A stretch of 48,687 bases of DNA from Candidatus Saccharimonadota bacterium (GTDB lineage Bacteria > Patescibacteriota > Saccharimonadia > Saccharimonadales > UBA4665), in assembly GCA_020428025.1 (NCBI GenBank), contig JAGQNO010000002.1, forward strand, positions 1-48,687, written 5' to 3'. Positions within the stretch are counted from its first letter, which is position 1, and each line of letters starts with the position of its first letter. This document shows, piece by piece, positions 8,850 through 10,466 of the stretch. The notes under the pieces are model-generated. The model was not told where the DNA came from and made no database searches. It saw only the letters and a list, made by a program, of their open reading frames with translations. The translations under genes were made by a program, and so were the position numbers.

Positions 8850-9290
8850 ATGTCCGAAGCACTATATACATCGCTGGGCCCAACAAAAGCAGAAATTGAC
8901 CAGATTATTGCTGAAAGTAGGCAAGAATCGCTTGCTTTAACAGGCGGCAAAGAGGGTTATCCAGATATATCTATTCCTCCTAGCGCCCCAGAGAAAAGAA
9001 AATATAGTACGACTGTTTCTTTTTCTAGATTTAATATGCGTATCCCGCCAGGCGTTCATCTGCCATGTCAGAACAATGACCCGGAGGACTTTTATGAGGT
9101 TTCAGACAAAGCCGATCCACGAGATCCGAAAGTAAAATATCTGGCCAAAATTTGCAGTAGTTGTGTGTACATCAAGGAGTGTCTGAGCGAAGAACTAGAC
9201 CTTAGCCCCTGGGAACAGCATGGCTTTAGGGCAGGGCTGACAGCTCAGCAGCGCGCAAGGATAATCCGCAAGAATAGAGCAAAAAAATAA
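8850..9290 (+). CDS. WhiB-like iron-sulfur transcription regulator
   Basis: A 146-residue protein. Its C-terminal half has the WhiB cysteine pattern C-x28-C-x2-C-x5-C: the first Cys in LPCQNNDPEDFYE, then CSSCVYIKEC. These residues ligate a [4Fe-4S] cluster in WhiB proteins. GFRAGLTAQQRARIIRK follows, matching the WhiB G-x-W-G-G-x-T turn and basic DNA-binding tail, except that the Trp is Arg. WhiB proteins bind sigma factor region 4 and are known mainly from Actinobacteria and their phages. The N-terminal ~55 residues are unassigned. I chose ATG 8850 over 8814 because TTGTCC (8814-8819), 17 bases, TATTTT and 7 bases lead to it. Confidence 0.75.
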   Translation: MSEALYTSLGPTKAEIDQIIAESRQESLALTGGKEGYPDISIPPSAPEKRKYSTTVSFSRFNMRIPPGVHLPCQNNDPEDFYEVSDKADPRDPKVKYLAKICSSCVYIKECLSEELDLSPWEQHGFRAGLTAQQRARIIRKNRAKK

Positions 9291-9292
9291 TC

Positions 9293-9321
9293 TTGCACAT
9301 TTTGGGCGAGTTTGGTTCAAT
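9293..9321 (+). promoter_or_regulatory. promoter of the small-gene leader RNA
   Basis: TTGCAC (9293-9298) and TTCAAT (9316-9321) are separated by exactly 17 bases. The predicted start is near 9328-9330. It begins three bases after the WhiB-like gene ends, so the following leader can be transcribed separately from that gene. Confidence 0.5.
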
Positions 9322-9329
9322 AGACAGCA

Positions 9330-9410
9330 ATGACAACCATGATGTGCGCAATCGTCAAGATTCTAGGCCTTTCGGGGCTGCGCTTCAGCATGGTTGAAGC
9401 CACGATATAA
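9330..9410 (+). CDS. candidate 26-codon leader peptide
   Basis: An ATG 8 bases after the TTCAAT box opens a 26-codon frame (MTTMMCAIVKILGLSGLRFS, then MVEATI) ending in TAA at 9408-9410. This spacing matches leaderless starts elsewhere in the window. The stop lies just after the antiterminator strand (9391-9400), so a ribosome finishing the peptide would cover it and favour termination. The frame may be accidental; no run of one amino acid suggests a sensed metabolite. Confidence 0.25.
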   Translation: MTTMMCAIVKILGLSGLRFSMVEATI

Positions 9411-9440
9411 CATCGGGAAGCAGCAGTCCTAGCAAATCAA

Positions 9441-9472
9441 GAGCTTCAACCAAGAAGCTTATTTTTTATTTT
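9441..9472 (+). terminator. intrinsic terminator in the leader
   Basis: AGCTTC (9442-9447) pairs with GAAGCT (9454-9459) around AACCAA, with a flanking G-T pair, and is followed by TATTTTTTATTTT. The AAGGAG ribosome site starts at 9473, so termination here would cut off the two downstream genes. Confidence 0.6.
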
Positions 9473-9484
9473 AAGGAGATTACT

Positions 9485-9652
9485 ATGGAAGATTTATATG
9501 GTGCGCATGCGTATGCGGAAGGATGGGGGGCACATCATCGTGAGGATTTTGTGCCAAAGACTGGCAGGGTAGTTGTGACTAAGTCAGATGTTGATGTGGA
9601 GTTTGTATCGCCCGTGCACGCAGTTCAGCAATCAATGGAGTTGCGTAGCTAG
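9485..9652 (+). CDS. orphan small protein (55 aa)
   Basis: A 55-residue protein with a strong Shine-Dalgarno AAGGAG (9473-9478) six bases before the ATG. It opens MEDLYGAHAYAEGWGAHHRE, rich in His, Ala and Gly, then runs through GRVVVTKSDVDVEFVSP. There is no signal peptide or membrane segment. It is followed after 8 bases by another small gene with its own AGGGG site, so the two are co-transcribed behind the leader RNA. I do not recognise the family. The ribosome site and the dedicated leader make it likely to be real. Confidence 0.5.
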   Translation: MEDLYGAHAYAEGWGAHHREDFVPKTGRVVVTKSDVDVEFVSPVHAVQQSMELRS

Positions 9653-9660
9653 GGGAAATC

Positions 9661-9900
9661 ATGAAAGAAACAGGGACAACTTTAGACGGCATACTATTGA
9701 GCAACCCCAGAGATCATCAGACAGAGCGCCTTGGAGTAGAAAAAGAAGCCAATGCGATTCTGGAAGCTTACGTAGGGTTTGCGTTGATGGTTCGCCAGGA
9801 AACACAAACTTCTGGTCGGAAGTGGGAGGTGGCAGAGGTTGCTGTCAGGGCTATGCGGCCGTATTTAGAAGACGACACCATTTTTAGGGGATTAGAATAA
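9661..9900 (+). CDS. orphan small protein (79 aa)
   Basis: A 79-residue, mainly helical, charged protein (MKETGTTLDGILLSNPRDHQ, then EKEANAILEAYVGFALMVRQ and VAEVAVRAMRPYLEDD). It has no Cys, membrane segment or recognised DNA-binding motif. AGGGG six bases upstream of ATG 9661 overlaps the stop of the preceding small gene, which suggests translational coupling. The rplS promoter begins 7 bases after its stop, so it closes this short operon. Function unknown. A longer frame at 9588-9887 overlaps both small genes but lacks a start signal. Confidence 0.5.
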   Translation: MKETGTTLDGILLSNPRDHQTERLGVEKEANAILEAYVGFALMVRQETQTSGRKWEVAEVAVRAMRPYLEDDTIFRGLE

Positions 9901-9906
9901 ACACCC

Positions 9907-9935
9907 TTGCCACAGAGGTCATTTTAGGCTACAAT
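9907..9935 (+). promoter_or_regulatory. rplS promoter
   Basis: TTGCCA (9907-9912), 17 bases, TACAAT (9930-9935). The -10 ends 9 bases before ATG 9945, so the message should be leaderless or nearly so. The ATG at 9939 is only 3 bases from the -10 and would lie upstream of the transcript start. Confidence 0.75.
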
Positions 9936-9944
9936 AGCATGGAT

Positions 9945-10466
9945 ATGAGCGACACAATTAAGCAATTAAACGACAGTTTTAAGAAGTCGGCCGTTGTAGA
10001 CGTCCGCAGTGGTGACACCGTTCGCGTGCACCAAAAAATTAAAGAAGGAAACAAAGAGCGCGTGCAGGTGTTCCAAGGTTTGGTTATCCGCACGGATCAA
10101 AAGGGTGGTCACATGAGCCGCATCACTGTCCGCCGTTTGTCTGGTGGTATTGGCGTAGAAAAGAGCTTCCTATTGCACAGCCCGCTGGTTATGCAAGTAG
10201 AAGTTACCAAGCGCTCCAAGGTGCGCCGTAACTACCTAAGCTACATGCGCGACCGCACCGGTAAGGCTGCCCGCATGACGGGCCTGGACTTTGATCGCCG
10301 CGCCGTAAACGACGTGCATGACGCCGCTGCAGAAGCAGAAGAAGCTAAACTTAAAGAAGCAACTGCCAAGGAGGCAGAAGCCAAGGCTGCCGCAGAGGCA
10401 GAAGAGCAGGCTAAGCTAGACGCCAAGGCCGCAGAAGTTGCAGCCCGCCACGACGCTGCCGCCTAA
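9945..10466 (+). CDS. rplS: 50S ribosomal protein L19 with long C-terminal tail
   Basis: A 173-residue large-subunit protein located at the 30S-50S interface. Residues 1-110 carry the L19 core: FKKSAVVDVRSGDTVRVHQK, RVQVFQGLVI, ITVRRLSGGIGVEKSFLLHS and RRNYLSYMRDRTGKAAR. The last ~60 residues are an Ala/Glu/Lys-rich charged helix (EAEEAKLKEATAKEAEAKAA and onward), absent from the usual ~115-residue L19. The start is taken at 9945 rather than 9939 from promoter spacing and because L19 proteins begin close to this point. The gene has its own promoter and terminator. Confidence 0.93.
   Translation: MSDTIKQLNDSFKKSAVVDVRSGDTVRVHQKIKEGNKERVQVFQGLVIRTDQKGGHMSRITVRRLSGGIGVEKSFLLHSPLVMQVEVTKRSKVRRNYLSYMRDRTGKAARMTGLDFDRRAVNDVHDAAAEAEEAKLKEATAKEAEAKAAAEAEEQAKLDAKAAEVAARHDAAA

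Follow-up and report, generated by a model that had tools for sequence, protein, structure and literature searches.

The stretch of DNA analyzed here (the window) comprises 48,687 nucleotides of contig JAGQNO010000002.1 from a Candidatus Saccharimonadota bacterium. At positions 9293-9484 it carries a leader element, situated between a WhiB-like gene and two small ORFs that are followed by rplS; this location differs from the usual one, which lies before rplJ. The flanking genes are as the preliminary description had them: the upstream ORF matches the Pfam family Whib (E 9e-6), and the two downstream ORFs, of 55 and 79 aa, gave no Pfam match, no NCBIfam match and no relatives. A link between the element and WhiB was considered and rejected, as a WhiB-like gene lies near no other leader in the flanks examined; the gene is a neighbor and not a part. 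The probable start of rplS is 9945, a TTGCCA-17-TACAAT promoter standing nine nt upstream (window 9907-9956), and the gene may also be leaderless and transcribed apart from the two small ORFs. The features of the locus are as follows.

8853-9290: WhiB-like protein gene of a saccharibacterium
9293-9321, plus strand: promoter-like hexamers TTGCAC - 17 nt - TTCAAT, seen in the sequence
9293-9298, plus strand: -35-like TTGCAC, seen in the sequence
9316-9321, plus strand: -10-like TTCAAT, weak by promoter scan
9330-9410, plus strand: predicted leader peptide ORF, 26 codons and TAA; homologous ORF in nearly all loci
9334-9350, plus strand: segment 1 (protector), part of the minimum-energy fold; the window duplex has z = -3.56
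9351-9365, plus strand: putative regulatory codons ATC (Ile), GTC (Val), AAG, ATT (Ile), CTA (Leu); across 81 leaders the corresponding codons specify Ile, Leu or Val in 48-99%
9375-9386, plus strand: s1, 5' strand of helix P1 (covariation over 81 leaders)
9391-9401, plus strand: segment 2 (switching strand), overlapping leader-ORF codons M-V-E-A (covariation)
9403-9415, plus strand: P2, a small hairpin CGAT/ATCG with the stop codon in its loop
9417-9429, plus strand: s1', 3' strand of helix P1 (covariation)
9443-9452, plus strand: segment 3, the 5' arm and loop of the terminator, pairing with segment 2 in the antiterminator (covariation)
9441-9472, plus strand: intrinsic terminator, stem 9441-9447/9454-9460, with U-rich tail (terminator search)
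9473-9652, plus strand: Shine-Dalgarno AAGGAG (9473-9478) and the 55-aa ORF, the first gene predicted to be regulated (no Ile, two Leu)
9661-9900, plus strand: 79-aa ORF, second gene of the short operon

The leader ORF, read as MTTMMCAIVKILGLSGLRFSMVEATI, starts with ATG at 9330, 8 nt after the -10 hexamer, and ends with TAA at 9408-9410, as first described. The -10-like TTCAAT is absent from the output of the promoter scanner, which demands A at position 2 of this hexamer. Minimum-energy folding of the leader returns a multi-branch structure with the terminator (z = -2.4, a value matched by 1 of 200 shuffles). Sequence, folding and a terminator search confirm that promoter, fold and terminator all lie where the preliminary description placed them. 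In the naked RNA the predicted elements are the protector, small hairpins and the terminator. Segment 1 pairs at 9334-9341 with 9389-9396, at 9343-9344 with 9386-9387 and at 9346-9350 with 9379-9383. The terminator stem-loop occupies 9441-9460 and is followed by ATTTTTTATTTT. The alternative pairing of 10 bases proposed earlier is correct to the base, segment 2 (TGGTTGAAGC, 9391-9400) being the exact reverse complement of GCTTCAACCA (9443-9452). The loop-to-loop kissing interaction between TGGTT and AACCA that was also proposed is no separate contact; the match is one end of this 10-bp antiterminator pairing. In addition to what had been described, the present analysis brought out the P1 helix, the protector hairpin, the Ile/Leu codon logic and an order-wide distribution.

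To determine the distribution of the element, blastn was employed with positions 9280-9500, and the core was matched in 33 of 93 family genomes, best over 9360-9403. Of 393 genomes in the order (Candidatus Saccharibacteria), 77 were recognized as carrying the element by a covariance model built from 36 leaders, and searches with the same model of the class and phylum samples found none outside the order. A scan of 84,980 species for an exact core pattern yielded 28 stretches, every one from a record titled Saccharibacteria, Saccharimonadales or 'bacterium'; a mobile or viral origin was set aside, the exact core pattern occurring in no viral contig. Nearly all aligned matches share a leader ORF ending GLCFxMVEA; in the window leader the Cys of this motif is replaced by Arg. 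At the usual locus the leader is followed by a small gene and/or BCAA genes and then by rplJ-rplL, these two named from sequence by inspection. In several genomes (L094, L118, L144, L151, L020) rplJ has its own L10 leader (RF00557). Two of the 83 leaders collected (G316 and G130) were excluded from the tallies for an ambiguous frame or register, and the counts below refer to 81.

The preliminary description had proposed a covariation analysis of homologous leaders and had tied its case to conserved pairing in related genomes. In alignment A2 of the 81 leaders, P1 was taken as s1 (9375-9383) paired with the region around 9420-9429, and the antiterminator as 9391-9401 paired with 9443-9452. Pairing is conserved in these two helices (9 and 10 bp): 95.5% of cells are paired, compared with 23-43% in slid controls. 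Two-sided changes occur in 17 of the 19 pairs, against 5.2 +- 1.6 in shuffles; shuffle tests here overstate significance because the leader sequences are related. Taken separately, P1 shows two-sided changes in 9/9 pairs with 97% of cells paired, which supersedes an earlier P1-only count on 36 leaders, and the antiterminator in 8/10 with 94% paired. A2 was fitted to P1 and not to the antiterminator, so the antiterminator count is free of fitting bias. Whole-segment swaps are present in the distant leaders G123, G163, G151 and G005, for example TTACTGAGGCC with GGCCTCAGTAA in G123 and TGGAGAAGTTT with AAACTTCTCCA in G151. A further candidate, the small hairpin GGCC/GGCT before s1, showed two-sided changes in a single pair, no more than shuffles give, and was left out. 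Judged by these comparisons, the element is a real and widely conserved switch, not a chance arrangement.

The surrounding parts are conserved as well. A terminator-like hairpin with a T-run is present in 80/81 homologues, and the P2 hairpin at the stop codon, which sits within P1, in 75/81 (mean z = -3.3). The terminator loop AACC is conserved despite being unpaired in the terminator. The protector helix, which joins the start of the ORF to segment 2, has a mean z of -2.2, reaches p<=0.05 in 50/81 homologues and is weaker outside the family. The stop codon falls 0-18 nt past segment 2 in 81/81; in the six leaders where this distance is 18 nt, a terminating ribosome may leave segment 2 uncovered. 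P1 and the antiterminator cross, the order being s1, segment 2, s1', segment 3, and would thus make a pseudoknot if both form together, as we infer they do. Since non-pseudoknot folding cannot hold the two helices at once, the case for the pseudoknot is built on covariation and on helix energies; with P1 allowed, such folding keeps the terminator in 66/81. Folded as naked RNA, 57/81 leaders form the terminator and 50/81 the protector. With a ribosome modeled at codon -6, P1 is left in 78/81 and the pairing of segments 2 and 3 beats the terminator in 76/81, in energies that omit pseudoknot loop costs.

Translation of the ORF appears to begin close to the 5' end of the transcript. A promoter with at least 9 of 12 matches is found upstream of the ORF in 75% of homologues but in 11% of shuffled sequences. 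In 71/81 leaders, 5-11 nt separate the start codon from the best-scoring -10 hexamer, against 22% expected by chance, a result somewhat favored by the choice of start codons with the promoter in mind. A Shine-Dalgarno-like sequence before the ORF was seen in only 3/82. Because of this short distance and the near absence of Shine-Dalgarno sequences, the leader mRNA is probably leaderless.

The codons upstream of s1 point to what the leader may sense. Codons -5, -6, -7 and -8 before s1 specify Ile, Leu or Val in 99, 94, 78 and 54% of the 81 leaders, respectively. In relatives the leader precedes leuA, ilvA, ilvBN and ridA. Leaders of leuA contain Leu and no Ile in 15/15 cases, and those of ilvA/ilvB operons contain Ile in 15/18; the association of codon type with the gene behind gives a Fisher p = 1e-6, uncorrected for relatedness. 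The operon class of G008 (leuA) was assigned by hand, the gene caller having missed a LeuA found there by other searches. Genome G092 supplies a natural control of codon specificity, with two leaders 1.4 kb apart (L093 2501-2616 and 3872-3987), one of the Leu type before leuA and one of the Ile type before an operon with ilvB-ilvN-ridA-ilvA. NCBIfam, applied to one representative per cluster, supplied the gene names: IlvA is TIGR01124 (638 bits), IlvB TIGR00118 (716 bits) and IlvN TIGR00119; the RidA-like protein scores just under the TIGR00004 cut-off, and the LeuA-like proteins score below the NCBI equivalog cut-offs. In 92 family genomes, a leader heads the operon of 6/6 strong LeuA matches and of 8 of about 10 long IlvA matches. 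For two long IlvA genes in the family (G076 contig C127, and G083), no detected leader stands directly before the gene. That the sensed codons are those for Ile and Leu, matching the genes behind in relatives, is strongly supported by this comparison; the match to the pathway rests on relatives, the window operon being without a BCAA gene.

The same data bear on two other explanations of the leader. The first is a metabolite-binding riboswitch of a new class with an incidental ORF; ligand-driven switching had initially been considered equally possible. A conserved multi-helix leader with terminator and antiterminator would suit it, and a new class would be compatible with the Rfam results: no family, including Leu_leader RF00512, T-box and riboswitches, exceeded the gathering threshold in the window, and none matched at the leaders of ten relatives' loci. 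Inspection, however, revealed no conserved unpaired core; the strongly conserved bases are accounted for by pairing in one of the states. The ORF with its Ile/Leu codons, the fixed distance from promoter to start and the stop after segment 2 are all conserved, and the match of codon to pathway does not fit a riboswitch. We consider this explanation extremely improbable.

The second is an attenuator that senses a drug or peptide, in which the C-terminal GLCFxMVEA itself stalls the ribosome, as in tryptophanase and macrolide-resistance leaders, and the amino-acid codons are incidental. With its strong conservation and hydrophobic character, the end of the leader peptide does look like an arrest or signal peptide. 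Yet third codon positions are equally conserved there (CTG 73/79, GCC 73/78), synonymous codons being frozen in the s1 and segment-2 codons and variable in the Leu run, and divergent leaders alter the peptide but keep the RNA pairing (G123 CFRVTEA, G151 CFIYGEVWA, G005 YFKNVWS). Codon type also tracks the pathway of the gene behind, which leaves peptide-induced stalling very unlikely.

We therefore favor translation-coupled attenuation through a leader peptide, which the preliminary description had put forward and which the conserved ORF, covarying antiterminator and second helix, conserved terminator and pathway-matching codons bear out. With a probability of roughly 0.88, the element is a ribosome-mediated transcription attenuator that senses the charging of isoleucine/leucine tRNA. 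Transcription would begin at the leader AUG or no more than a few bases from it, and a ribosome would load on the leaderless mRNA. When the ORF is untranslated, segment 1 would pair with segment 2, and segments 3 and 4 would form the terminator, keeping the operon off. With plentiful Ile/Leu, the ribosome would reach the stop just past segment 2 and occlude or disrupt s1 and segment 2, again allowing the terminator. In a shortage of Ile/Leu, the ribosome would stall at the Ile/Val/Leu codons, far enough upstream to free s1 and segment 2; P1 would then form and segment 2 would capture segment 3, giving an antiterminator, pseudoknotted with P1, in which the Leu/Ile run is predicted to be unpaired, and expression would be on. 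Predicted targets are leuA, ilvA, ilvBN and ridA in relatives and the two small ORFs in the window. The helices, ORF, codon logic and terminator of this model come from comparative sequence; we infer its ribosome kinetics, leaderless start, simultaneous formation of P1 and antiterminator, and response to starvation.

A third alternative concerns the window leader itself. Searches of the tblastn type in its genome, G000 (90% complete), gave no match for IlvA, LeuA or IlvB, the IlvB search being run without a positive control. This result, the site near rplS unlike the usual one before rplJ, and downstream ORFs with no relatives found would all suit a relic, in which the BCAA genes were lost and the leader merely terminates or reads through with no physiological role. 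Against this, all helices of the window leader are intact: P1 is kept through an alternative register (s1 pairs with 9423-9429 and then with 9417-9421 across a bulged A9422), and the protector fits the changed s1 (GCGC with GCGC). Dozens of other leaders with no called BCAA gene behind them are also intact; in all, 49/81 leaders have none called, some owing to a contig end or gene-caller failure. We thus regard a relic as unlikely, although less so than the two explanations above, and retain the reading of a working attenuator for the window, against which stand its weak promoter and the Arg in its peptide motif.

The composition of the downstream products was analyzed in the same context. The first small proteins behind leaders contain 5.1% Leu and 4.9% Ile, versus 9.9% and 6.4% in long ORFs, and are Ile/Leu-poor also in comparison with small ORFs further along in their operons (p = 6e-4); their Ile/Leu ratio follows leader type (p = 0.008). 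As a lead, this low content fits manufacture during an Ile/Leu shortage; alternatively, it may reflect acidic, disordered proteins. The 15 LeuA-like proteins behind leaders have 5.1% Leu, compared with 8-9% in IlvA and IlvB. Enzymes produced while Leu is scarce would be expected to show such a bias, as if adapted to that state; the comparison covered the LeuA-like proteins behind leaders together with IlvA and IlvB. A C-terminal motif like VxYAGTE....P.......F.AN.PA-end is common to small proteins of several families, its carriers being first ORFs behind leaders in L107, L112, L119, L124, L129, L150, L151, L153 and L170. We hypothesize, at about even odds, that ultra-small Saccharibacteria without the BCAA enzymes searched for keep an intact Ile/Leu-starvation attenuator for fast-evolving, Ile/Leu-poor small proteins, as a dedicated response to starvation and possibly to host shortage.

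An attenuator of this kind, spread across an order, would read out directly which amino acids these epibionts run short of, and it points to a set of small uncharacterized genes as candidates for induction by starvation. The leader also offers a pseudoknotted antiterminator with comparative support, and the Leu type before leuA versus the Ile type before ilvA/ilvB amounts to a natural codon-swap experiment. In the open-access literature searched, we found no ribosome-mediated attenuator described in Saccharibacteria. The closest parallel in logic is provided by the enterobacterial leu/ilv/trp/his leader-peptide attenuators (Yanofsky type), which share the four-segment arrangement, a leader ORF with regulatory codons, a protector, an antiterminator and an intrinsic terminator, as well as control of leuA, ilvA and ilvBN. 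The saccharibacterial leader differs in belonging to another phylum with no sequence relation seen (no Rfam match), in being probably leaderless, in having an antiterminator that crosses a second conserved helix (a predicted pseudoknot), and in often preceding uncharacterized small genes, also in a genome with no detected BCAA enzymes.

Among actinobacterial systems, the LEU element lies upstream of leuA and has a leader ORF with a Leu run and a pseudoknot (Seliverstov 2005, PMC1262725), features that the present leader shares. By definition, the Leu run of the LEU element pairs with the leuA Shine-Dalgarno and there is no terminator (PMC1262725), whereas the saccharibacterial leader lacks that arrangement, carrying an intrinsic terminator in 80/81 cases and a Leu/Ile run predicted to be unpaired in the antiterminator. 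Short ORFs containing Ile/Val/Leu codons, together with terminators, also precede ilvB in Corynebacterium, Mycobacterium and Streptomyces (PMC1262725). In those leaders the ORF and the terminator overlap, and changing the codons was without effect in S. coelicolor (PMC1262725), whereas the saccharibacterial leader keeps the two apart and has a covarying antiterminator. The trpL attenuator of Sinorhizobium meliloti, whose RNA begins directly with the leader-ORF AUG (PMC7298713), is a precedent for a leaderless attenuator; it differs in sensing Trp and not Ile/Leu, in sequence and in phylum, and we found no description of a pseudoknot there. Within a well-known kind of attenuator, the leader would thus be novel in its probably leaderless start, its pseudoknotted antiterminator, its phylum and its uncharacterized small targets.
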